Assembly: GCA_025526935.1 (NCBI GenBank)
Contig: JAHLKD010000116.1
Span: 1-64,000, forward strand
Reading direction: 5' to 3'
DNA length: 64,000 nt
Source of the DNA: Cladochytrium replicatum
Taxonomy: Eukaryota > Chytridiomycota > Chytridiomycetes > Cladochytriales > Cladochytriaceae
The notes under the pieces: model-generated
Told to the model about the DNA's origin: nothing
Database searches by the model: none
The model's input: only the letters and a program-made list of their open reading frames with translations
Made by a program: the position numbers and the translations under genes
Part shown: positions 130-63,196 of the stretch, one piece after another
Layout of the letters: every line of letters starts with the position of its first letter
How positions within the stretch are numbered: position 1 is the first letter of the stretch

Positions 130-592
130 ATCCAGACGGTCGATGTTGCACCTTGCGGTTCACACCAGTTTCACTTTCATTACGCGCAGGGGTTTGACAC
201 CCATACACTCGCATATACGTTAGACTCCTTGGTCCGTGTTTCAAGACGGGTGGTTTGAGACCATTTCGTCAGCATCCTAGACGCGTGGAGATAGCGGGGA
301 TCACACTTCCTTGCTAGCAATCTGCATGCAGTTTGCAAGTAGGTTACGTGAACCCACCAACCCCGTATCGCGCCGCGGCCCTCAGTCCAACAAGGGGTAG
401 AAACCAGAGCTATAACACCCGAAGGCTACCTTCCCTAGTCTTTTTCCCCCTCCTCAAACTGACGCTGACCTGCATCTAGCGAATTGCACCCCTCGTTAGA
501 GAGGCTGAATTCCAGACGCAAGACTGGTTTCAAGCCGTTCCCTTCTGACAATTTCACGTACTGTTTAACTCTCTTTTCAAAGTTCTTTTCAT

Positions 593-626
<34 letters not shown>

Positions 627-950
627 TCACTAGTATTTAGCTTTAGATGGTATTTACCACCCATTTAGGGCTGCAATCCCAAACAACCCGACTCTTAGAA
701 AACGTATCACATAGGAGCAGAGCTGGACCACAGACGGGATTCTCACCCTCTATGATGTACCTTTCCAGGTAACTTGTGCCCAGCCTACCCCCGAAAACGT
801 TTCTATCAACTACAATTCGCCCGTTAGGGAGATTTCAAATTTGAGCTCTTCCCGCTTCACTCGCCGTTACTAGGGGAATCCTTGTTAGTTTCTTTTCCTC
901 GGCTTATTAATATGCTTAAGTTCAGCGGGTCTTCTTGCCTGATTTGAGAC
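130..950 (-). rRNA. 28S (LSU) rRNA, 5' part only, truncated by telomere
   Basis: On the minus strand this reads as the conserved start of nuclear LSU rRNA through the D1/D2 region. The reverse complement holds the universal landmarks: the 'GCATAT(t)AATAAGC(c)GAGGAAAAG' region near 892-915 and 'CCGTCTTGAAACACGGACC' near 231-249. Only about 820 nt of the 5' end remain. The distal end runs straight into telomere repeats at about base 130, so this copy cannot give a full rRNA. Transcription would point toward the telomere. Confidence 0.93.
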
Positions 951-1295
951 CAAGTAGTTTTACGGTCAAAGCATAGAGTCCTAAGGTCGCTAGCGAGTTT
1001 CGCTAGAACACAAAGGTTCACAAGTCTACAATCTGAATCCCCGCATAGGAATGTGCCTATGGCCCCATTAGAACGAGTGCGTTGGTGAGACTAAGAGATA
1101 GAAGGGCAAACCCTCACTAAACGATAGTCTCTGCACAACGTCAAGGCCACAAAGCTCCTTTGACAAGGCAGCGTAGATACTATGTTTAAAGACACTAGCC
1201 TCCAGTAAAAGAAGCTAGAAGTCTCATATCCCTAACACCCCCTCATCCACAAACTCCATAGAGAAGCTTGAGACCAAGGAGGTCAGGACGTTTCC
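951..1295 (-). other. ITS2 spacer
   Basis: This segment lies between the 3' end of 5.8S and the 5' end of 28S and shows no conserved rRNA motif. Its boundaries are set by the neighbouring conserved sequences and are accurate to perhaps 10 nt. Confidence 0.8.
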
Positions 1296-1452
1296 GTTGA
1301 TACTCAAACAGGCATACTTCCTGGGATACCAAGAAGTGCAAGATGCGTTCAAAGATTCGATGATTCGCGGAGATCTGCAATTCACATTACGTATCGCATT
1401 TCGCTGCGTTCTTCATCGTTGCGAGAGCCAAGAGATCCGTTGTCAGAAGTTG
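1296..1452 (-). rRNA. 5.8S rRNA
   Basis: The reverse complement contains the universal 5.8S core: 'GATGAAGAACGCAGCGAAAT', then 'GAATTGCAGA' and 'GAATCATCGAATCTTTGAAC'. It ends with the 'GCCTGTTTGAGTATC' type 3' end. The length is about 157 nt, as usual for fungi. It appears complete, but it belongs to a truncated rDNA unit. Confidence 0.93.
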
Positions 1453-1550
1453 TAATAGATTTGTAAAGCTTTCGCTTATACAGGTTTATTAAACAAGTTG
1501 TGTAACAATAGCAAGAAAAACATAGTATCGGCTAGCCCTCAAGAACTCCC
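1453..1550 (-). other. ITS1 remnant
   Basis: A short stretch upstream of 5.8S is presumably the 3' part of ITS1. No 18S sequence follows. The sequence passes, at an unresolved point between about 1500 and 1615, into the truncated helicase locus. Confidence 0.5.
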
Positions 1551-1616
1551 CGCTGTAAGGCAAAGAGCTCCAGACCATCCCTCCACGCTCGAATGGGGCC
1601 CGCGGGTACACGCTCC

Positions 1617-4600
1617 TTAAGGAACTACATACCTGCCCGGATGACCAGCTATTGCGTTCAGCTTGTTCTTGTGGGCTTTCACTTCACTCCACAGGTAACA
1701 AGGAATCCGTAGCTCTTCCAGTCGCTTTCTGATCTCCGCTGCAACAGCTCGTAGGGGAGATATCAGCACATGCAGAACTGCTGTGTTCAACGCTGCCAGG
1801 ATGGCCGGTACCACGGTCTTTCCAGACCCAGTTGGTGACACCAGTAGAGTATGTTTTTCACTCTTGCAGATGGCCTCTCTGATGGAATCTGATCTGAAGT
1901 GTGCATATCGGTTTCCAGTGAAAGTACGAAGTAGCTCCGTGGCTTGCAGAACAGTATTTGCCCTTGCTGCATCCTCCCCACTCGCTAGGAAATCTTCACA
2001 GAATGTGGCATGGACATTCACCGTCTCCAACACCTCCGACACAGTCAGGGTCCCCAACACAGTCTCCGTCTCTGATACCTTTGCCGTATCTCTTACTGTC
2101 TCAGATACATTGGACCTGTCCCCTGATCGGAGAACTGCCTCTGGAGATGTCACTGCTGGGACCAGTTGCTCGTGTTCCTGATCTGCTATCCCGCAACGTT
2201 GGAACCAGTGCTCACATATCCTCGGCCGCTCTGCTGCAACTACATCCAGAAGCTGAGGGATGCTTGAACCTGTTCGGTTGTAGATTGCCTCTGCTGTGTG
2301 TGACGAATGGCCCTCTCCAAGGTTTGCCATGTCCCCTTTCCTTAGCAACGTGCTTACTTGTGCAGGCATTAGTCGGGAGTCAATCTGGGAAAAGTTGCTC
2401 GCAAATCTACGGTACTCGGCATATGTCACGCGCACCCCAAGAATGCTCTGGAAAGTCTCTATGAGGGTAGTAGACAAATCTGAACATTCCAATGTCCCGT
2501 TCTTTCCCAGGAACAAGGATCGCCTACATTCTTCGGGGAATGTCTTTTTCTGCACCCACTTGAATGTACTGAACAGCAACCTCCGCACTATAAAGATGTG
2601 GAAGATGAGCAGCCTCTCCAGTGACCTTGGAACAAAGCGCGGAACCACTGTCCGCTCCTCCTTTATCTGTTCTGTCTTGCACCGGTAGCTCACCAGCACC
2701 AGACGATCATTCTTATGATAAACAGAGCGAGGAACTGCAGAAGAATTGACTGCATTCTGAGCAACTAGGTCCGTGAGACGAGGCGGGGCTCCACATCCAA
2801 GCAGAACCGCTGCTGCAATCTTCTTGTTCCATTCCAGCAGCTGTCCATGCTGCTGCCAGAGATCATGGTGATCCGTCACTGGCCCAATATTTCTAACCCA
2901 GGATGCCAATATGCCTCCCAAAGCTGGCTGCAGGTGCGTACTGGAGAGAGTTGTGTGTTGCGCCCACTCATTGTCTGACGCTGTCTCACATGTAACATCG
3001 GGAGCATTTTCTATGAGCCACGATAGAGTTAACCATGTCTCTTGATCTGGCTGGAGAGGATAAGCGATCTTCTTCATGAGTAGACTGAGGTCCCTGATTA
3101 AGGTACTGTAGCATGCCCTATGGTGGTCATGTTGAAGTATGTATCCTTCGCCAGCAGGTACGCACATGCCTGGGAGTCAAACTGCATGCGATTGGTGGCA
3201 ATTGTCTGGCTGGCAACCTTTTTGATCCAAGCTAACGTTACCCCGATCCTCCCTGACATTGTGTGCCTATTGAAGCGAGAGGTAAAGTGTCCAATCTGCA
3301 TTAAACGTTCTGGCTCCACACTTCCAGTTACTTTGCAATCCTGCCAAAACCGGTGCAGACCTGTGACATACGCCCATCTGAGTAATGCAGCTCCGGTTCT
3401 GGACACGCTGTTGGCAGGTCTCCAGGCCCCCAGCACATCTCTCGAATCAATCACCCACCAGGTGAAAAGGGGATTGTTGAACACCTTTTCGGGGATGGTT
3501 GATATGACAGTTTCTGCTTGGAAGAGAGACTCTGTAACAGCAAGCAGAGCTGCAAAAAGTTCTTCTTCTGTCTCTGCCGCAGATCCAACAGGGAGAAGAT
3601 GTGTTGGCCCCACCGGACTTTCCTGATCCTCGTCGCCTGACTCACTGGAGCTTTCTTCAGAGTCCACCTCGTCCTCATGATTGGTGTCGCCAGACAGCAG
3701 CTGTGCCACGTCTAGCCCCTGATCCCCTACTGGATCAAACAGTGGTATTCCTGTTGGTTCTTCAGGTCCAGAGTTTCCAACCTTCTGCTTCAACATTCTT
3801 GCAAACTGCTCCAAAGATGCTCCCAATGAGCTGCTGATCTGCACAAAGGGTGTCTCTATAATGCGCTTCCACACCAAGATCGTCAGCCACAGAACACAGG
3901 TCCATGTCTGTGCATAGCGTGAAAGTGTTGCGTCCCGAAGCTGTCGGAATTTCTGCTTCTCGTTGACTTGCTACTCCTGATCAAACCTGGGCTTCATGAT
4001 TTCCTGCCTGACCATGAAGGGCATTCGCATGATCCGTGATTGCAGTGCCTTGTGGTAGGCAACCATAGTCTTCCCCAGCTCCTTGCGGTTGAACCCCAGG
4101 CCAATGTCCTGGTTTTGTTCCCCAACAATATCTTTCCACGTGATGCGCTCGTTGATCTTTTGGCCGCTCCTGTGCCTAGGATCCACATGGTGAAAGTCGC
4201 AACCAAGAATCCAGGGAGGAAGCTCTTCAGATAGCTTCAAGGCAGGGACAGAGGTGAATGCGTCAGCAAGCAGCAACTGCAGGCTTGCCTTCTGCATTTC
4301 AGTGAGCTGCAAGGATGGATCAGGGGAATAGGGTCCCAGAGGAGCCATTTGCACGACCCAGTAACCGTGAAGTCCATAGTACGATAGTACGGCATGACAA
4401 TACTCTGGACTTTGACCTGCTTTGGAGAGGTACCTCTTGCTGCCGGATTGGACTTGCAACAATGCTTTTGAAAGGTAGATAAGGTGCCACACACATAGCC
4501 GCAGCCTCGGCACTGAAAACCATCCTGTACACAGACTCCTGGGATTGGGGTAAATGAGGCAAGCTTGTTGTTGTCTCTGTCTATACGCTCCAGAATGACC

Positions 4601-5365: not shown

Positions 5366-5680
5366 TCACATGTAGTGAGAAGCTCACCAGGGGCAGATTT
5401 AGGAGTGGTTTCAGTGATACCTGGTTGAACAAACTCATTGCAGTCCATTGCAGAAACATCACTGCTGCTAGATTGCATCTAACGGTAGGACCATGAGCGC
5501 CTAGTGTATACTGTACCGTGTGAGAGCATACTTCAGATTGTTGACTAGCTTTGACGAGAGTGGAAGTTGCACTAATAGCAGCGGTAGAAGCTGTGGTATG
5601 GCCGGAGAGGAAGTTGAGATCCACTATCTATAGCAGGAAGACCCTGTGGCCAGGTCTTGCCCTGATAACCCCCGGCGTGG
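5366..5680. repeat. Upstream module repeated at 15.6 kb (direct) and 17.2-17.4 kb (inverted)
   Basis: Bases about 5369-5468 match 15601-15702 in the same orientation with scattered mismatches. Bases about 5478-5680 match 17172-17365 in inverted orientation. This is the 5' flank of the helicase relic and seems to be part of the same subtelomeric repeat unit. The stretch 5681-5906 holds no convincing gene. Confidence 0.75.
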
Positions 5681-5906
5681 CAGAGAAGCTTGTTATCAAG
5701 GTGTATGGTTGGTGGAGATTTTGGACAAACAAATACAAAGAATCAGTTCTCTAAACCAGTAGCATGCTCTAGCCCACGAAATCAAAGGAGTCTCTCCCAA
5801 TAGCATCATCGCCTAACCCATGAAATGAAAAGACTTAGTGAAAAATCCACCTACAAGAGAGATTGAGATAGCACGAATTACAGTTGAAGCAGAATAAATT
5901 GCATCT

Positions 5907-6104
5907 GGAATGTCCGTCCATGGTTAATAAAAATGGGTTGGACGGTCCATCCGCGCCTAATAAAAACGCGTTGGACGGTCCGTCCGTGGCTAATAAAAAC
6001 GCGTTGGACGGTCCGTCCGTGGCTGATAAATTCGAGGTGGACGGTCCGTCCGCATTTAATAAATTCGCGTCGGACGGTCCGTCCGAATGTTATTAACATT
6101 CCGG
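5907..6104. repeat. 33-bp palindromic minisatellite, six units
   Basis: Units start at 5907, 5940, 5973, 6006, 6039 and 6072, exactly 33 bp apart. Each begins with GGACGGTCCGTCC or a variant, an inverted repeat with 6-bp arms around a central T, followed by an AT-rich 20-bp spacer. Because 33 is a multiple of three, several frames stay open through the array, giving false ORFs. A decayed inverted counterpart lies at 17.09-17.17 kb. Confidence 0.9.
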
Positions 6105-6641
6105 CTTGGAATAACTGTTAGAGAACTCCCGGAAGTCTCTGGTCCATCAATTACTTCGTAGTGTGTTGTTAAATTAACTGATATTAGTCTTGTAATTTTC
6201 ATAATCCAACAAATAGATGCCTTTGATACATTGTACGAATATCAATACTAGTTAGATCGTTTACTCCACAGTAAAGATCTAATATATCGACAACGTTGTT
6301 GTTAACCTAGTGACTGGAGTAGCTAAGTCCAGCGTTAGATATTTAACATGAGTTCTTAAAGTGACTGTATCTATTATGTACATATAGCTGATACAGTAGA
6401 TGATAATCAACATAAATGGGATGGAAAATCTGGTTCCACCAAACCCACTAACCAACGCAATTCGTGGATTCGGAGCTCTTGACAAGCGAAAATGATGCTG
6501 CCCACGGTAGTTTCAATCATTCATAGGCCAATGTTTTTAAACATTGACTTTTCACAAGTACAATTGTTAACTTCTTCACTCAAAACACAAAACAAAAAAA
6601 AGCACTCAAAAGGTTTCATGAGAATCAAAACTAACAAATTC
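6105..6641. other. No recognisable gene
   Basis: AT-rich sequence between the minisatellite and the 3' end of the minus-strand membrane glycoprotein gene. It presumably includes that gene's 3' UTR. No motif or repeat was seen. Confidence 0.6.
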
Positions 6642-46870: not shown

Positions 46871-47529
46871 GAGTGGGCAGTCGGCGAGCACCAGCGACCT
46901 TTTAACACGGCCAGTGCGCAAGTTGATTTGAAATCCGAAGAGGTTTGGATTTCAAATGCGAGACGATTCCACAGAAGTAAAATTATTACCTCACCACTCC
47001 TTTATCTTTGCTTTTCTTTCCATTCGTTCTGAAAGCGCGAACCTGCAAAGCGTCTGCATGAGTCCGCTCAGTTGAGGATAGATCTGGTCAACTTCCACCA
47101 TATTGAGTTTCAGTGCATCCATAGCGTAAAGAATATCTACGGGGATGACAAATAACTAAAAGAGTGGCTATTTCCTGTGTAAGTTTTGGCAACATTTCTC
47201 TTGGAAACTGTCGGTGTGTCTGCAGCAGTTGGTTCGACAGTAGCCGGAAAGCCAATTTCTACTAGCCGTGGAATGGAAGCCGCACCTCTTATCCTATCCG
47301 CAACGGCTTGCAATGCTCCCCAACCCGGCGCACCCTGTACTCTTGTATATATCGCTCAACATCCAGAACTTCGTCTCGAAGCAAATTCAATGCCGTTTTG
47401 AACCGCCCGATCAGTTTATTGCATGCTGGGGGGGAACCAAATCAGCAAAGGCAAATTGATTTGGCCCAAAATCAAGCATTACAAAAAGACAAATATGACG
47501 TACACTTGAGCAGTAATCGCATCTCGCGC
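46871..47529. other. No confident gene
   Basis: A mixture of short frames with no motifs lies between the Cys-rich fragment and the channel-like fragment. Confidence 0.4.
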
Positions 47530-47802
47530 ATGTGCTCTCGAGATGCTCCGTAGCCACGATGCTGTACAACTCTGCCCGTGTTTTCGTAATTTTCTCTCTT
47601 CTTGTTTGCTGGTTCGGGCTGACTACGTGCGGCTGTTCAAGATCATCAGGGTTGCGAAGGGGCTCCAGTACTTCCATAGGCAGGAGAGGCGGCTCCATGC
47701 GTCGTTCTCGGGACAGATCATAAAGTTTTTAACGTGCTTGACACTGATTACGCACACCATGACTTACTGCTGGTTCGCCTCGGATACAACAGCGGATTGA
47801 TC
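47530..47802 (+). pseudogene. Fragment resembling a voltage-gated/cyclic-nucleotide channel S4-S5
   Basis: In one frame 'ADYVRLFKIIRVAKGLQYF' has the spaced Arg/Lys pattern of a voltage-sensing S4 helix. It is followed by 'RLHASFSGQIIKFLTCLTLI' and 'THTMTYCWFAS', similar to the S5 'LI(A)HWxxCxW' stretch of EAG/CNG-type channels. The frame ends at 47802 before any pore sequence, and no upstream S1-S3 frame was found. It is a likely relic. The assignment rests on pattern only. Confidence 0.35.
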
Positions 47803-48249
47803 AATGGCATCAGTTGATCCGGTTTTTACAGTGCCGATAGAGTCGATTCGCCCTGCAGCTGCCCTGCCGTGTTCTCCGCAACAAAAATATCCCCGTCCTG
47901 TGAAATGCCTTCTTCCTACCGAACCACAATTGATTAACATAAGAATCTCCACAAGCCCCAAAATTCTGATATCCTTCATCTCCGGTTCAGAAATCGCTGG
48001 ACATTCCCGCCTCGATCCCGAGCGCCGGTGAACCACCACTAGTCTTCCCCGCTGGACCAGACCCGACGCCGACGGGTTCACCTCCAACCTCCAAAGCATC
48101 TCCACCGACCAACACCGTCTCCGACTCTTCTGAATTCTGCACGTTACGAAGCTCTGTGATTGCGATTTTCGGCTGATCAGGATCGATCTTCTTTACTGAA
48201 GCTACGCAGACGACCCAATTAAGTGTGCAATATTTGGGGGAATCTGTGA
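47803..48249. other. No confident gene
   Basis: Open frames on the minus strand here are shadows without motifs. The 5' end of the Fanzor-like relic is somewhere to the right. Confidence 0.4.
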
Positions 48250-50770
48250 TGTTGATCAGTTCTATTCTAGGATATGGGATCCATCAAAGACATGATCAGC
48301 AAGCAGGAGCTGATTTTCAAGAGGCTCAGGATGTTGGCAGAAGCTGATACAGACCTCAGTAATGGAACTGCAGCTCTTCACAGAATGGATCCTATTGAGT
48401 CAGGATTATTTCAACTGGGAGGTAGGATTATGTTTTTTTGAGGGTCATGGAGACCATTCTAACCAAAAGAAGTAGATAACTTTGTTGAAGACAGAGCAGC
48501 GTCTCTCTCTGGAAGAGATCATATGTCCCTTCAAATGGAGTTGGATTCGCCTCCTCAGTCTGATGTTCTGTCTGAATCTCATCTTTGCATGTTAATGAAA
48601 GTCGTATATCACAGCAAATCGCCAAGAACAATAATTCTGTTGGATTCAGGATTGCAACACAGAATTATTCTCAAATTCAGAATGATCCGAAAGATGTCAG
48701 GGAGTGGGAACGATTAGGTTCAGTTGGCTAGAAATAACGGGTATACAAAATGAATCTGCTGATCTGTTTGGGAGGAATCAAGCTGTCCAAACACCACCCA
48801 ACCTCTCAAATTCTCTGCCAGTCAAAATCCAAGCTCAAAAACACATCAGCAGTCACTGCTTTTGAGAATGAGAATTGGAACAAGTTGACACACCACCCCA
48901 ACGAGCCGTTTTTGCTGGATCAGGAGCTGAACAGCTTCAAGGGCAAGAGGAAGAGAGGAATCATCCAAGAAGGCGGCGACAACGAGGAAAATTACAGTTT
49001 GTACATGCCATTAAACTTTTCATTGTCAGAGGTCTCATCTCTGTGCCTTCTCACCTCCGCAACAACTCCTAGATGATGCTGAACTTGGTAAGTCTCATTC
49101 ATTTCTTCACCTCTACATCCAATTAAAGTAAGCATTCCTAAATAGCTGAGGTCCAAACATATTCCCAGCTACTCTCTTGATCCAAGACCACAATTGCTCC
49201 ATCTCCTGCAACAAGACAGGCCACAATACAACCCGAAGCAAGAAGTGCTCTAACTACATCGGCATCGGCAAAATTTCAAACTCTAATCTCCGGGGACCAA
49301 GTGAATATTTGGAACACATGGACTTGGGCAAGAACAACCCTGCAGGTGAGCAATAATATGACATCAATTTGGGATATTAGGCAGTGCTAATTCAAACTCT
49401 CCCAGAGGGGTGAAGTGGCGACAAGAATGACAGTGAGAGAGGTGAGAGACTCCAAGAATGTTCAGTGCATCTAGATTCTCACTTCCCTTGATATATTCAT
49501 TTACAGACATTGAAACCAGAACACTGCCGCTCAACACATGCACCATGACAGCCCAACGACAACATCAAGTTTGCCCACCAAAGCTAAAGCTCTGTCCCAT
49601 TTTGAGCTTTACGCTGAAAAGCTTTGCTATCGACGGAAGAGCTAATTGGGCTATACATGAGCTAACAAGAAGCAGCAACCCGAGAACGATGACCTCCCAA
49701 CAATCTAAGGAATGGACTCAGCTGAATTGTACGAGCCATGGGTCAACCGTGTGTTCCACAAGATTGCACTTCCTAATGCCAATGCACTTGATTCGGTTTC
49801 AATTCATTGGAGAAAGCCAAGATCAAGGACTCGTCTCCTCACCATCCAGATTATGTGCCTTGGGAAAAAGTGAAGAAGCATTTTGCTTATCCAGACGTAT
49901 TGGAATGATTTGTGTGCCAAATACACTGAAACACTCTTTCTGTTGCAGAGAGACTTCCAACCCACCAACTTTGTGCTTGGTGCTGATCCTGGAAAAGAGG
50001 ACATCAGATTTACCAGCTCCTAGTCCAGGACACCTGTTCTGCTCCAAAGGTATATTTCCGGTACAGCTTCACCCAGTACCATCAGCGTGCAAATATCAAC
50101 TCAGCGAGAAAGTGGCAGGAATGGCAGCTGGCAGAGAACCTGATGGTGTGGCGAGCCCAGTGCTCACATCCTTCGCTGGTCACCACAGACCTGCAGCAAG
50201 TTGACGCGGGCATTTGTTGGTTTGTGCAATACATTGAGGCAATGCTTGCACACTACACCACCTTGAACAATCACGCGGAATGGTGCTGGTGAGTCTACCG
50301 GTCAAAGCAGTGAGAAGTGGAGCGAGCGTGCAAGTTCATTGCCACCCTGGGTGGGAGGCGGGACAACTAGTGGGACTCCAAGATCGATCTGGTCATTGCC
50401 TCAGGAGGTGCACCAGTCAACCAGTTCCAACGCATCTCCGGCAGTTCAGGCCCACAGAAGCGCATCAAGGCACGACTGGAATTGCGTGTACAGCTTATCT
50501 GTGAAATGGCCAAACCGTAGACCTCGTCAGGGTCCTTTTTTGCAGGGCCTCACCAGTTGCCCAAGCTTGTCTGCCCATGTCTTTGCTTCAAGTCTGGTTG
50601 CCATTGAACCTCCCGGACTGCAAGGATCGAAGACGATGGTACTCAGACGACTGTTGTGGTGATCCATGCTACCACCGACCATGGAAGCTGGACTGCCCTG
50701 ACTCGGTCAAACAGAGATGTGTGTACCCATGAATATCCAACTGATTTTCATGTACTCCAAGCAGCACAGG
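48250..50770 (+). pseudogene. Decayed Fanzor (eukaryotic TnpB-like, OMEGA-type nuclease) gene
   Basis: Pieces in mixed frames follow the Fanzor order. A possible N-terminal segment is 'GKLQFVHAIKLFIVRGLISV' (about 48992-49050). The RuvC-I-like 'NFVLGADPGKEDIRF' (about 49967-50010) follows an intron acceptor (CTGTTGCAG). Next come 'RYSFTQYHQRANINSARKW' (about 50060) and 'PSLVTTDLQQVDAGICWFVQ', then 'WCW*VYRSKQ*EVERACKF' and 'DSKIDLVIASGGAPVNQF'. 'KARLELRVQLICEMAKP*TS' (about 50470-50525) corresponds to the glutamate/zinc-knuckle region, and an Asp-containing terminal block ends near 50745. At least four in-frame stops (about 50290, 50310, 50370, 50518) and several shifts make it nonfunctional. 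Fanzors are RNA-guided DNA nucleases carried by transposons. No clear element ends were found. Recognition is from remembered family patterns. Confidence 0.6.
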
Positions 50771-50870
50771 GGGGATCGGCCGTGGATGTTCAAGGTGATG
50801 TTCGTCTAATGTTCTTATTTTCTGTTTGCTGCGAAAGTCCCCAATTCTGGTGATCCGTCCAGCAACACAC

Positions 50871-51501
50871 ATTATAATGTATTTTACGTACGATAGAGAA
50901 ATCCCTAATATAGCGGGCTATTATTAAGAATTCGGGTTGTCAATACATATACTACATTAAATGATATCATATCTTGAACATATACTATATTTTCATCATA
51001 ATTATTAAGGGTTCACAGTGCGGTTGCAGCGGTAATAGTCGTGGTGATCCCCTAAGTTAGTTAATTTTCTTAGGGCTCAAGAGATCAAAGATTCCAAGTA
51101 TAATTTTATACTGTAACCAGACATCCTGCAAATTTTCAATATTGGTGATCTCAGGCCAGTATCTTTGCGTACACTTAATTTTACTCAACAGTCGGCCATT
51201 CAACAAGACGCCAAACTTTCCCCATACCAGAATAACTAACTATTTAGTATGAATATCAGAACATGACTAAAGGACACGTACAATTAAAACAAGAAAAGAT
51301 CAAGAGATCCGAAGGTAAAAACCAAAAGGAGTCATACCGCAGTCACAATTGCTCAAAGAAATCATTTTCGAATCAAATGTCAAAATCAAATAACGAACAA
51401 ATAAATCCATACAAAGTTCATGAGCAGTGATTTCACCAAATGGCTTTGTCGTGCAAATCATCACCAGTCCACCAGTCACTCCGCTGATTGAATCGACTTG
51501 A
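50871..51501. other. AT-rich intergenic, promoter side of the tandem repeat-protein genes
   Basis: An AT-rich block (about 50870-51280) contains several ATATACTA/TATTATTAAG words and no coding. It separates the Fanzor relic from intact genes. Confidence 0.5.
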
Positions 51502-52887
51502 ATGGGTCGCTCGTCTCTCCCACTCGAACTGGTCGACAGAATCCTGCTTTGCCTTTCGCAAGCAGGCGAGCCCACGCTTGCATACAGAGCCGCTGCAAAT
51601 TTCCGCCGTACGTACGTCCAGCTACAACTTATAACCATCGCATACTCTATCGAGCAAGCCTGTGAGGATGGAGACCTCGAATCTCTCAACCTGCTATTCA
51701 AGCTCTCACCAAAACCTGATCTGGGCTACAGTCGCATTATGACCTCAATCAACAGTGCCAGCGCCAACGGCCACGCCCACATTCTCTCATGGTGGCTCAA
51801 AAGTGGTCGGAGATTGCATTTCTCGACGGACGCAATTGACAAAGCAAGTGCCAACGGCCACGTCCATGTTCTTTCCTGGTGGCTCAAAAGTGGCCTCGCA
51901 ATGCATTACTCCGAAGAAGCGATCCACCTTGCATGCCAGAACGGCCAGATCGGTGTATTGGACTGGTGGAAGCAGAGCGGCCTGCCGTTCAAATACACAT
52001 CCTTCGCCATCGAAGACGCAAGTGACCGAAACAACGTAGCTGTTCTCGAGTGGTGGAGAACCAGCGGGCTAGAGCTAAAGTATACCGAGAAAGCCATTGA
52101 GTTTGCGTCGGGAAAAGGGAATTTGGAAGTGCTGGATTGGTGGATGGGGAGCAAACTCGAGCTTCGCTACACCAAAGAACCGCTGACGACTGCAAGTCAA
52201 TGTGGTCATGTCGGTGTGCTCGAGTGGTGGCGGAAGAGCGGGCTTGAGCTCAAGTACGAAGAAAGAGCGATGGATCGTGCGACCACGAAGAGCCAACTTT
52301 CTGCTCTTGACTGGTGGAAGTCCAGCGGTCTGGAGCTGCGGTACAGCACAGATGGGATCGACATGGCAAGCGAAGAGGGGAATGTTGACGCACTGGAGTG
52401 GTGGAGGAACAGTGGGTTAGAGTTACTGTACACCTCCAGCGCGATCTCCATCCCGAGCCATTTGTCCAAACTCGACGTTCTCGATTGGTGGAAGAACAGC
52501 GGGCTGCCGTTCGAATACTCCGTCGAGATCATGGACAGGGAGAGCATGCATGGGAACGTGGTGGTCTTGGAGTGGTGGAGGACGAGTGGTTTGGAGCTGA
52601 AGTACACATCGTATTCGATCAATCTGGCAAGCGCACACAGGAAACTGCAGGTCTTGGAATGGTGGAAGAACAGCGGGCTTGAGCTAAAGTACACCGAGCT
52701 GGCGATGAACCATGCTAGCCAATGCGGAGACTTGGATATGCTGAAGTGGTGGAAGAACAGTGGGCTGGAGCTGAAGTACACTGCCGCTGCTTTGGACTTC
52801 CGGAGCAAGACGGACAGCAAGGCTGTGTTGGATTGGTGGCACACATCCGGGCTTGCCTTTCCAGCAACTTTGAGATCCATTCATTGA
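51502..52887 (+). CDS. F-box-like/ankyrin-like repeat protein, 461 aa (tandem copy 1)
   Basis: A single-exon gene. The N-terminus 'LPLELVDRILLCLSQAGEP' is F-box-like. From residue about 85 it has 13 repeats of about 33-34 aa, each built on AI-x2-AS-x3-GHVxVLxWWxxSGLELxYT. The helix-turn-helix spacing is ankyrin-like, but with an invariant WW pair in place of the usual ankyrin core. Such proteins are abundant in chytrids (recalled knowledge). With an F-box it could act as a substrate adaptor for SCF ubiquitin ligases (inference). Codon use is even and the frame intact. Its paralogue starts 172 bp downstream on the same strand. Confidence 0.8.
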   Translation: MGRSSLPLELVDRILLCLSQAGEPTLAYRAAANFRRTYVQLQLITIAYSIEQACEDGDLESLNLLFKLSPKPDLGYSRIMTSINSASANGHAHILSWWLKSGRRLHFSTDAIDKASANGHVHVLSWWLKSGLAMHYSEEAIHLACQNGQIGVLDWWKQSGLPFKYTSFAIEDASDRNNVAVLEWWRTSGLELKYTEKAIEFASGKGNLEVLDWWMGSKLELRYTKEPLTTASQCGHVGVLEWWRKSGLELKYEERAMDRATTKSQLSALDWWKSSGLELRYSTDGIDMASEEGNVDALEWWRNSGLELLYTSSAISIPSHLSKLDVLDWWKNSGLPFEYSVEIMDRESMHGNVVVLEWWRTSGLELKYTSYSINLASAHRKLQVLEWWKNSGLELKYTELAMNHASQCGDLDMLKWWKNSGLELKYTAAALDFRSKTDSKAVLDWWHTSGLAFPATLRSIH

Positions 52888-55031: not shown

Positions 55032-56004
55032 ATGACCGAATCAGAGCAATATACCTTCTATCTTGCTTATGCATTCTTCAACCTTGTCCTCCAAGCTGGG
55101 CTGTTTCTTTTCTTCTATCGCGGTGCTTTAAATGCGCTGAAGAGGGGAAAGCGTTCTATGAATCTAGTTCTCAAAGTAGAGCTGATTGTCTGCGCGATCT
55201 CTCTAGCCTCCATCGTTTTCTGGGGAGGACGACTTATTCCCGTGTTTGATGACTTCAGCTGCACCCTCTTCCATGGCTTCATCATGGTCTTGATCGAGAT
55301 TCAGTCGAGTTGCTACACGTATGTGCAGATCCTTCGATTCATGGTCACGTTAGGATACAACAAGCTCTATTTGGACATCTGCACAATTCTCGTTGCCATC
55401 GTTTCGATCTGCCTAGGTGCATATTTCCAGCACGGGATGGCAAAAGACGACCACACTTGACTACCAGCACACATACTACACACTCGGCACCGCCGCCTTC
55501 CGAATCCTCATCGAAATCGTGATCCTCTCGGTGTTCTTCCTCCACCAACAGCGCATCCGAGAAATGTTGAAGCGGGACGCCTCAGCTGGTGGCGATAACC
55601 GTGTACAGTTTGTTATGCGTGTGCTCGCTGTACTCCTGGTCATCTGTGCGCTGTGGATCTTTGCGTTCTCGGTTATAAACATGATGCCAGGAAACACACT
55701 TCTCCGCGTCATAATATCCAACTTTCATTTCACTGTGATCCTATTTTGTGTTGGGCTTCCTCGGTGGATGATCCGTATGCGAAGCACATCGACGAGTCGC
55801 GGCACAACGGAAGCTAAACTGAACAGCTCGACTGCTGGGGGTCACTTTTCCGAAAGCGGGCGAAGATTATCTAACTTTGCCTCTGAAAGGCTTTCACGAG
55901 CTTCAAAGACGCAGATGGATACCGAAAAGTCCACCGGACCTGAGGAAAACATTGGTGTTGTGGGGGTAGGGCCTAATGTTCGTCTTCCTACACACATCCG
56001 TTGA
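55032..56004 (+). pseudogene. Seven-TM receptor-like gene with one frameshift
   Basis: From ATG 55032 the first frame encodes four hydrophobic helices ('LAYAFFNLVLQAGLFLFFY', 'KVELIVCAISLASIVFWGG', 'FHGFIMVLIEIQSSCYTYV', 'ICTILVAIVSICLGAYF'). It stops at 55460 ('AKDDHT*'). The neighbouring frame, overlapping at the same place, continues 'TLDYQHTYYTLGTAAF' with three more helices ('ILIEIVILSVFFLHQQ', 'VLAVLLVICALWIFAFSVI', 'ISNFHFTVILFCVGLP') and a Ser-rich tail of about 90 residues. Seven helices in total fit a GPCR-like receptor. No GT-AG intron lies at the switch, so a 1-nt loss near 55450 is the simplest reading; it could be a recent pseudogene or a base-call error. Confidence 0.6.
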
Positions 56005-56151
56005 CAGGATGAAAACCTCGAGAAGGAATTTTCAATAAGTTCACCGGAACTGAGGAAAACATTGGTGTTGTGGGGGTAGGGCCTAATGTTCGTCTTCCTA
56101 CACACGTCCGTTGACAGGATGATAACCTCGAGAAGGATTTCTCAATATTTG
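55932..56151. repeat. 110-bp tandem duplication across the receptor gene's 3' end
   Basis: Two adjacent copies with period 110 bp share GAGGAAAACATTGGTGTTGT and the following TGGGGGTAGGGCCTAATG, then the stop codon region and CCTCGAGAAGGA. The first copy encodes the last about 23 codons and stop; the second is in the 3' flank. A few substitutions separate them. Confidence 0.9.
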
Positions 56152-60496: not shown

Positions 60497-63077
60497 ATGG
60501 CACCGTCAACAATTACACCGTCCCTTCCTATTTCTGTGGCAAACCAAAAGGCCCCTGCTACGTCCCTTCCCTTCGACAACGCCAAAACCTCCACGCTTCC
60601 TTCCGTCTCGACCATCAATGTGCACGCGTGGATCCAGCAGAAATATACCCCTTACACCGGCGACCACTCCTTCCTGGCCCCGGCGACGCAACGCACCCTC
60701 GCAGTCTGGAAACGATGTGAAGAATTGCTGAAGCGGGAGCTTGCGACCGAGGGATGTCTGGACGTGGACGCAAAGACTCCTTCCACCATCACGTCCCATC
60801 CTCCTGGTATGTACACTAATCAATTCCGCATATTTGACATTTCTGATCTCATTATCGTCTGTGTGATCCTTGCAGGTTTCATCGACAAGGACAACGAAGT
60901 CATTTTCGGTCTCCAGACCGACGCTCCTCTGAAGCGTGCGATCAAACCCAAGGGCGGATACAACATGGTGAAGGCCGCATTGCATGCCCACAACCACGAG
61001 ACCGACCCTTTGGTCGAGGAAATCTACACCAACCACCGTAAAACCCACAACGACGCCGTCTTTGATATTTATACACCCGAGATGCGCGCTGCGAGGTCGA
61101 ACCACATCATTACCGGTTTGCCTGTAAGAATCCTCAAAGAAAAAAGGTCCTTGGATCTGGTTCCGAAACTTGACCGTTTTCCTACTAGGACGGCTACGGT
61201 CGTGGACGTATCATCGGCGACTATCGCCGCGTCGCGCTCTACGGCACCGACGCCCTGATTGCCGCCAAACAAGCCGACAAGCTCGCTCTCGGCAGCCACA
61301 TGACCGAATCCGTCATGCGCGTGCGCGAAGAGGTGTCCGAGCAGATCCGCGCGCTCAGAGCGCTGCAGACCATGGCGCGCTCGTACGGCTTTGACATCTC
61401 CACGCCCGCCACGAACGCGCGCGAGGCGTGCCAGTGGACGTACTTTGCGTACCTTGCGGCGGTGAAGGAGCAGGACGGCGCAGCGATGTCGTTGGGTCGC
61501 GTCGATGCGTTCCTGGACGTGTACTTTGAGAAGGATATTGCGGCGGGGGCGTTGACAGAGATCGAGGCTCAGGAAATCATCGACCAGTTTGTGATCAAGC
61601 TGAGGCTGGTAAGACACCTGAGGACCAAGGAGTACGACGAGCTGTTCGCAGGTGATCCGACCTGGTATGTTCGACGGTGGGTGATGAAAATGACTCGAGA
61701 GTTCACCTTTTCTTGGTGCTTTTTGAAAGGGTTACGGCGGTGTTGGGTGGTATTGGTCTGGACGGTCGTCCGTTGGTGACCAAGACCAGCATGCGTTTCT
61801 TGCACACCTTATACAACCTCGGCCCCGCTCCCGAGCCCAATATGACTGTGCTCTACGACCCAAACCTCCCCAAAGCCTTCAGGGTAAGATATTTCACCGT
61901 TTCTGAGTTTTGATTTTGATCTCACGCGCTCCATCAGGACTACGTATCCAAAGTCTCGATCGACACCAGCAGCATCCAAATGGAATCCGACGCTCTCATG
62001 CGCCAGCACTTTGGCGACGACTACGCCATCGCCTGCTGCGTTTCCGCCATGCGGGTCGGCAAAGACCAGCAATACTTTGGCGCGCGCTGCAACCTCGCCA
62101 AACTCATGCTCTACGTCCTCAACCGCGGCCGCGACGAGATCACCGGCAAGCAAGTCGCGCCGGACTTTGGCCCTGTCCCCGACGGCCCGATCGATTTCGA
62201 CTGGTTCTACAAAACCTTTGACAAGGCCATGGACTGGCTCGCAGACCTGTACGTCAACACCATGAACGCAATCCACTACTCGCACGACAAGTACTGCTAC
62301 GAAGCCCTCCAGATGTCCCTCCACGACACCGAAGTCCGTCGTCTCATGGCATTCGGCATCGCCGGCCTCTCCATCGTCGCAGACTCGCTCTCAGCCATCA
62401 AGTACGCCTGCGTCACACCCATCCGCGATCCCAAAACCGGTCTCACGACTTGGTTCGATATCCAAGGCAACTTCCCCAAATACGGCAACGACGACGACCG
62501 CGTCGACGTTTTCGCAGCTGAGACACCGAGAGCGTTTTGGGAGAAACTCCGCAAGACTCCCGCGTACAGGGACGCAGTGCACACGCTCTCGGTGCTCACG
62601 ATCACGTCCAACGTTGTCTACGGCCACGCGACTGGTGCGACGCCCGACGGACGCGCGAAAGGCGAGGCGTTTGCGCCTGGGGCGAACCCCATGCACGGTC
62701 GTGACGGCGAAATGGGCGCACTGGGCTCGCTTAACTCGGTCGCCAAAGTGCCGTACTACCCATGCTGCATGGACGGCGTCTCGAACACGTTCTCGATCGT
62801 GCCCAGCGCGCTCGGAAAAACGGACCCTGAGCGGGTGGAGAATCTCGTGGGGTTGCTCGATGGGTACTTTTCGAGGAGGAACGATGTGGAGGATAGCGGC
62901 GGGTTCCATCTGAACGTCAATGTGATGCGGAGGGAGACACTAGTGGAGGCCATGGAGCATCCGGAAAAGTATCCTAGTCTGACGATCCGGGTCAGCGGTT
63001 ACGCAGTGCACTTTGCGAGGTTGACGAGAGCGCAACAGATGGAGGTCATTGCGAGGACGTTCCATGGGAGCATGTGA
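60497..63077 (+). CDS. pflB: Pyruvate formate-lyase (formate C-acetyltransferase)
   Basis: Exons 60497..60806, 60876..61123, 61189..61664, 61730..61883 and 61938..63077 join in frame to 775 aa, close to the bacterial 760. PFL converts pyruvate and CoA to acetyl-CoA and formate without oxygen. The tandem catalytic cysteines are in '[15 protein letters not shown]'. The glycyl-radical site is in '[18 protein letters not shown]' near the C-terminus. '[21 protein letters not shown]', '[19 protein letters not shown]' and '[15 protein letters not shown]' match the family core. The absence of a clear organelle presequence suggests a cytosolic enzyme. The radical makes it oxygen-sensitive, implying anaerobic or microaerobic phases. 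Presence in fungi is limited to certain chytrid-related lineages (recalled). Confidence 0.93.
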
Positions 63078-63196
63078 GGGTTCCTGTGGTGTTCCGGAGG
63101 ACGGTGCGAGGTTGACGAGAGCGCAACAGATGGAGGTCATTGGGAGGACGTTCCATGGGAGCATGTGAGGGTTTCTGTGGTGTTGCGGAGGACGGG
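63015..63196. repeat. 91-bp tandem duplication of the PFL gene's 3' end
   Basis: Two adjacent copies of GCGAGGTTGACGAGAGCGCA...TCCATGGGAGCATGTGAGGG with period 91 bp. The first encodes the last about 20 codons and stop; the second is in the 3' UTR, with few mismatches (for example GCGAGG to GGGAGG). Confidence 0.92.

Follow-up and report, generated by a model that had tools for sequence, protein, structure and literature searches.

Remains of a probable Fanzor1-bearing transposable element family in the chytrid Cladochytrium replicatum

The locus described here raises the question of whether a stretch of broken reading frames in the chytrid Cladochytrium replicatum is the relic of a gene for a Fanzor nuclease, as proposed in an initial annotation made from the sequence alone; Fanzors are eukaryotic kin of the CRISPR nucleases. 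The window, i.e., the whole stretch of DNA that was analysed, comprises 64,000 nucleotides of contig JAHLKD010000116.1 (C116:1-64000) and was compared with the entire C. replicatum assembly (50.5 Mb (megabases), 198 contigs); in the following, L numbers designate loci of the repeat and C numbers contigs. It is known that Fanzors, when intact, cut DNA as RNA-guided endonucleases (PMC10432273) and that transposable elements carry them (PMC3627910). The feature very probably belongs, as a pseudogenised copy, to a family of Fanzor1-bearing transposable elements of C. replicatum that appears to be extinct.

Sister copies and the Fanzor signature

The window copy is too eroded to prove a Fanzor identity, which therefore rests on its sister copies. 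A self-search with window positions 48200-50850 disclosed 81 matching pieces across the genome; one of them is the stretch itself, and the others show 70-92% DNA identity (most of them 75-86%). At the protein level, a sister gene model matched at least 110 pieces; in this search 93 of the 158 candidates were scored, so that its counts are lower bounds. The recurrence of the same stretch across the genome places the protein pieces quoted in the initial annotation above chance. The intact sister copies that it had proposed to look for were not encountered: no full-length intact copy is present among the scored candidates of the genome-wide protein-level search, the longest stop-free match spanning 245 residues (open frame of 284 residues, C35), whereas the read-through of one long copy extends over 623 residues.

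In the Pfam analysis of sister frames, PF07282 (the TnpB/Fanzor zinc ribbon) was the top family in all nine unjoined frames, drawn from nine copies, and no other family outscored it there; the nine were taken from 17 stop-bounded frames, themselves picked for the WNRD-like motif W[NK]RD[VML]C. The frame of L030 reached 32.0 bits, the curated cut-off being 26.3 (expectation value, E=1.4e-7), the other eight frames falling below the cut-off. When C-terminal frames were joined, PF07282 was found in 11 of 12 rows (best E 5e-7) and was the only Pfam family listed. The guided_TnpB model (NF040570) gave weak matches, far below its cut-off, in 5/12 joined rows (best 0.016) and in 7/9 frames (best 0.026).

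It has been reported that TnpB and Fanzor proteins share the motif D-X(125,275)-[TS][TS]XX-C4 zinc finger-X(5,50)-RD, whose ribbon is OrfB_Zn_ribbon (PMC3627910), and that Fanzors are recognizable by a DPG at RuvC-I and by a glutamate moved to six residues before the first CxxC, the TDG motif of the WED domain being a mark of Fanzor1 (PMC10711439). The single uninterrupted frame of L030 reads E-x6-CxxC-x58-CxxC-x5-RD and holds TSSWCFRC...CPGC-x5-RD, while in one frame of L034 the RuvC-I aspartate stands 178 residues before TS. The shared motif is found in this way across copies, its halves coming from L034 and L030 and not from a single unbroken frame. A census of motifs occurring anywhere in the frames of 33 loci (the window copy included) was compared with shuffles that keep base composition only: C..C.{5}RD was found in 15/33 loci (5/330 shuffles), W[NK]RD in 20/33 (2/330), DPG[KR] in 12/33 (18/330, anywhere in three frames), TDG[VM]S in 3/33 (1/330) and E.{6}C..C in 10/33 (38/330). 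Four distinct copies hold the string RIITDG[VM]S (L034, L023, L003 and L017/L029).

As for known structures, the Guillardia theta Fanzor1 was the best PDB match of one L004 read-through (E=0.0013). A segment of this protein, chosen for matching L004, scored 18.3 bits with a profile of 24 copies, L004 being one of them, versus 11.4 bits for the best of 5000 shuffles. All the 24 loci offered to this profile had passed; the 12 more complete rows among them form profile A4, and the set A3 is made up of 30 of the listed stop-free pieces. These comparisons of sequences support the assignment of the gene of the ancestral family to Fanzor1, and the earlier proposal of a Fanzor relic appears correct at the family level. 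As the sister copies show, the ancestral gene encoded a zinc ribbon of the TnpB/Fanzor type together with most of the RuvC fingerprint of Fanzors; by analogy with intact Fanzors, its product would have worked as an RNA-guided DNA nuclease.

Several observations, however, weigh against this assignment. A published search pattern for Fanzor-like TnpB proteins allows 120-160 residues between the DPG and the glutamate and 12-18 between the CxxC pairs (PMC10711439), whereas the values counted here are 173 (L034, from positions) and 58 (L030); the broader 2013 definition allows both. The frequency of E.{6}C..C is just about 2.6 times the shuffle rate. The PDB support is not robust, since another join of L004 matched the G. 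theta Fanzor1 at E=0.26, and no Fanzor PDB match was obtained for the read-throughs of L031, L034 and the N-terminal half of L032, nor for profiles A1 and A2 or the L030 frame. No homologue outside C. replicatum emerged among 5.8 billion proteins searched, and a search for relatives in viral contigs returned no locus. An AlphaFold model of 195 residues had a predicted local distance difference test (pLDDT) of 61.4, a predicted template modelling score (pTM) of 0.35 and no strands, with 0 Foldseek matches at E<=0.001. Pfam recognized 0 families in the pieces of the window copy and in its gene model; individual pieces taken from the window and from three sister loci gave one weak unrelated match, seven NCBI gene models also lacked a PF07282 result, and a six-frame search of the whole genome with the PF07282 profile yielded nothing at E<=0.001.

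To the same side belongs the PDB list of the C-terminal profile A4, which is headed by the zinc domain of Escherichia coli Ada (E=0.0052), the G. theta Fanzor1 being tenth (1.5); Ada also tops the list of the L030 frame (E=0.1). The list of A4 also includes, at 0.2, the TnpB derivative LaTranC, whose match covers the same RuvC-III stretch. The position of Ada might suggest that the family encoded an unrelated zinc-binding protein, e.g., one with an Ada-like zinc domain, carrying the motifs by chance. This explanation is highly improbable and was rejected because Pfam finds PF07282, in the 9/9 frames and 11/12 rows mentioned above, and no Ada family; moreover, the Ada match does not extend past the linker that precedes the second CxxC and RuvC-III, and the RuvC-I, TDG and RuvC-III motifs stand in the Fanzor order. 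A contamination with bacterial TnpB was discarded as well: the copies are spread over many contigs of this fungal assembly, contain an intron and have annotations in C. replicatum.

Layout and decay of the window copy

The self-search and the comparison with sister copies place the decayed copy at 48212..50880 on the + strand. Its left limit (~48212) is the point where similarity to L011 starts, and the element's own 5' end may differ from it; its right limit (~50878) is the 3' end of the family. The initial annotation had given 48250-50770; the extent is corrected to ~48212-50878, with the addition of a deletion junction at 49480..49481, where adjacent window positions map 0.9-1 kilobases (kb) apart in L007/L032, L008/L033 and L009, so that ~0.9-1 kb of these loci is missing in the window copy.

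A GT..AG intron-like segment (49897..49948, +), traced through matches to sister loci, lies just 5' of the RuvC-I region, whose motif GADPGK (the DPG fingerprint) can be read in the window frames at 49979..49996 (+). It is followed by a pseudo-coding piece alignable with the sister copies (49987..50289, +), which contains QDTCSAPKVYFRYSFTQYHQRANINSARKW...HAEWCW and inside which both RYSFTQYHQRANINSARKW and PSLVTTDL fall. A second piece of this kind opens with WDSKIDLVIASG at 50371 and extends up to the RuvC-II region (50371..50520, +). The zinc-ribbon and RuvC-III region (50521..50740, +), delimited by the window frames and the profile alignment, is eroded; its first CxxC is lost and a remnant NRD is left at ~50710. 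The gene end and the 3' terminal segment of the family occupy 50740..50878 (+), where sister copies typically end with ...GATCCGTCCAGCAACTCACATTATAATAATA. The protein pieces originally quoted, among them VYRSKQ*EVERACK with its stop, do lie on the + strand and in the order given, in shifting frames interrupted by stops. The catalytic role ascribed to the glutamate of LICEM did not survive the comparison: the window copy reads LICEMAKP*TSSG, with a TAG stop at 50518, the sister copies read ETAEAYTSSGCFRC, and the catalytic glutamate of the latter, six residues before CxxC, is a lysine in the window (KP*TS; 50512-50514).

The intron-like segment is kept in all the loci that span it (28 loci were considered: 14 span both sides, nine match partially and five give no match). 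It breaks the frame unless removed; its removal in sister copies joins the frames into THFQPTHFVLGADPGK, and the NCBI model P0010, which reads ...ACPETHFQPTHFVLGADPGK, is spliced at this segment.

The window copy bears two TGA and two TAG stops within 50020-50541. The mode of decay was analysed on a 585-base stretch aligned to L034:3885-4469, for which 27 loci were offered beside the reference L034 and 23 (250-900 bases) were kept, giving 24 copies. Divergence at the first, second and third codon positions is 0.150, 0.152 and 0.155, respectively (276 pairs), and this equality points to neutral decay, with no visible selection. The copies differ by 5.8-13.6% from the column majority, and transitions at CpG amount to 286/1619 (17.7%), versus 3.1-5.2% in other contexts. 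The copies compared thus decayed neutrally with strong CpG loss, a pattern that suggests cytosine methylation of repeats in C. replicatum. Repeat-induced point mutation, known from Neurospora, is of the CpA kind; it was rejected as an explanation, since the excess of transitions sits at CpG.

An NCBI gene model, BJ742DRAFT_745195 (P0005), annotated as a "hypothetical protein" of 417 residues, covers the window place, its pieces matching by eye the frames found there. Its existence could be taken to mean that the relic encodes a functional, domesticated protein. The model, however, leaves out RuvC-II and the larger part of the zinc-ribbon region, the underlying DNA has lost the catalytic glutamate and the first zinc cysteine pair, and the copies diverge equally at the three codon positions; a domesticated protein is accordingly extremely improbable, and, judging from its sequence, the window copy most likely has no function now.

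The initial annotation had also envisaged a fossil omega-RNA, i.e., a guide RNA, in the 3' segment, for which neither covariation, nor folding, nor Rfam gave a signal. The 3' 140 bases are alike among copies, as they would be for any common end. RNAalifold, run on 23 sequences, predicted 10 pairs, 0/10 of them with changes on both sides, a test that has little power in neutrally decayed copies; in 5/5 copies the 3' segment folded no better than shuffles, and the search of window positions 47500-52000 against Rfam returned one match, outside the element and far below the cut-off. An ancestral guide RNA is not supported by these data.

As to the surroundings of the relic, an ankyrin-repeat reading frame lies directly 3' of it (~51502-52350). 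The contig start (1-129) is a tandem array of TAACTAACCC in 13.3 copies, which looks like a telomere repeat, and near-perfect tandem duplications are present at 55927-56147 (unit of 110 bases) and 63014-63195 (unit of 91 bases). Elsewhere in the genome, the Fanzor copy of L031, on C9, appears to have received a nested insertion, being broken at 161-3330 by ~3.2 kb of other DNA, and the NCBI model P0011 (C60) joins a JAB/MPN domain to a piece of the Fanzor relic; this fusion is most likely an annotation artefact, the repeat lying beside a host gene copy.

Ends of the element and route of spread

The comparison of copies, by which the element ends were expected to be found, defined the 3' end and left the 5' end undefined. 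The 3' end was compared in 22 loci beside the window (L018 giving no match); it is sharp in most of the aligned copies, with L037 and L020 breaking off earlier. The terminal 183 bases gave 43 matches at 40 places, some of them short of the last base, and a search with the terminal 85 bases brought five more (C130, C120, C28:183536, C1:1114815 and C37), so that the 3'-terminal segment occurs at 45 places. In alignment A5 this segment appears in two variants, GATGTTCTTGTTT--TCTG and GATTTTTTGGTTCCATCTG, whose sequences suggest at least two subfamilies. At their 5' side the copies start at scattered points of the element, and several references agree on this. Upstream of approximately C27 position 3260 the copies carry either of two 5' regions: one is found in C27, C32, C89, C17 and C56, its most upstream known 600 bases matching six places, and the other in six loci (the window, L011, L034, L032, L028 and L029).

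The 5'-truncated, intron-bearing Fanzor1 families of Chlamydomonas have been explained by one-ended Helitron transposition (PMC3627910). On account of the common 3' end, the scattered 5' starts and the retention of the intron, which argues for a DNA route, a one-ended spread is preferred here: the family may have multiplied as DNA by a Helitron2-like rolling-circle process, to which we assign an even chance.

A different DNA route would be that of a cut-and-paste element with terminal inverted repeats, similar to SPu-1, whose copies later lost their 5' parts by deletion. SPu-1 of the chytrid Spizellomyces, the first Fanzor1 element described, is of this type (PMC3627910), and the undefined 5' end of the C. 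replicatum family would be compatible with it. Nevertheless, an inverted match of the 3' terminus (87 base pairs (bp) on both strands) was found in none of the 33 loci searched, few of which reach the true 5' end, and terminal inverted repeats were discarded on this basis; besides, deletion alone ill explains 45 places for the 3' segment against six and six for the two 5' regions. This route is considered unlikely. On C28, the 3' segments at 194286 and 198097, which face in opposite directions, were taken to belong to separate copies.

Other data speak against the one-ended Helitron2-like route. Its link with Helitrons rests on a pattern. One partial and degenerate Helitron_like_N match exists in the genome, at a locus that shows no credible similarity to the family; it suggests that Helitrons were once present in C. 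replicatum, and no sequence ties the fragment to the Fanzor family. The helicase family Herpes_Helicase gave no match. The terminal 66-67 nucleotides, folded as DNA, had z scores from +0.4 to -2.0 in six copies, the hairpin being weak. Flanking repeats stand out in 1/14 copies: that of L030 matches at 12/13 bases, lies three bases off the left edge and overlaps the A+T-rich tail on the right, and the 182 mismatched pairs that served as control averaged 5.8, their maximum, 10.5, equalling the L030 score. By eye, none was clear in 12 further copies; according to Bao and Jurka (PMC3627910), older families may keep fewer flanking duplications. Finally, positions 1200-2401 of L023 consist of an inverted piece (5471-5207) followed by a forward one (5469-6363), joined at the same element position, which is the layout of the twin-priming inversion of long interspersed nuclear elements (LINEs).

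The arrangement of L023 is what would be expected if a LINE, acting in trans, had spread the Fanzor1 gene by target-primed reverse transcription, leaving 3'-anchored, 5'-truncated or inverted copies with a short A+T-rich tail. The common 3' end with ATTATAATAATA, the scattered 5' starts and the 13-base flanking repeat of L030, with its one mismatch, would fit such a process, and at least 150 RVT_1 matches with long open frames were found in the genome (150 of 469 candidates scored). These open frames reach 1622 residues, and many of them have a length of 1163 or 1109, which suggests recently active LINE-like families. On the other hand, the frame-breaking intron, which a spliced RNA would have lost, is kept in 14/14 spanning copies. 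The 28 loci, which represent 26 distinct copies, include no second inversion of the L023 type (other inverted pieces occur in L006/L037, a single copy), and the scarcity of flanking repeats is again unfavourable. The terminal 85 bp were found at 24 places, 20 of them known copies (19 plus C37) and four others, in a search that missed known copies; this argues only weakly against an abundant LINE with the same tail. The LINE route is therefore judged quite unlikely; if true, it would depart from the DNA transposons that are the carriers of Fanzors in the excerpts of the literature available.

Relation to known Fanzor systems

The C. replicatum family resembles the Fanzor1 systems of Spizellomyces punctatus (SPu-1/SpuFz1) and G. 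theta (GtFz1) in the DPG and TDG motifs, in the glutamate placed six residues before CxxC, in the C4 ribbon of the PF07282 type, in CxxC-x5-RD and in the location of the gene within a repeated element; with SPu-1 it also shares a chytrid host. It differs from them in that no full-length intact copy was found among the scored candidates, in the 58 residues between the CxxC pairs, in matching other Fanzors in the C-terminal region only, and in that a guide RNA was not detectable.

The 3'-anchored, 5'-truncated copies and the intron-bearing Fanzor1 gene recall CRe-1, CRe-2 and CRe-3, described as non-autonomous Helitrons of Chlamydomonas (PMC3627910); unlike these, the family has no Helitron shown to share its ends, and a flanking duplication is clear in 1/14 copies at best. 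It is also older than CRe-1, whose copies are ~98% identical to their consensus (PMC3627910). In being old and multi-copy, with no inverted repeats found and an open classification, it is similar to CMe-1A, the old Fanzor1 family of Cyanidioschyzon, some copies of which keep an intact gene (PMC3627910), whereas none was found in C. replicatum.

In the library searched, no paper pairs Fanzor with Cladochytrium, or Cladochytrium replicatum with the term transposable element. The family is a new, though dead, Fanzor family of known type; with it the chytrid order Cladochytriales gains a Fanzor1 family that is apparently extinct, one that a six-frame PF07282 profile search of the genome misses and that was found by comparing broken copies. 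Its history suggests that a Fanzor family can multiply into dozens of copies before becoming extinct, and that one-ended transposition may be the way in which its carrier moves.

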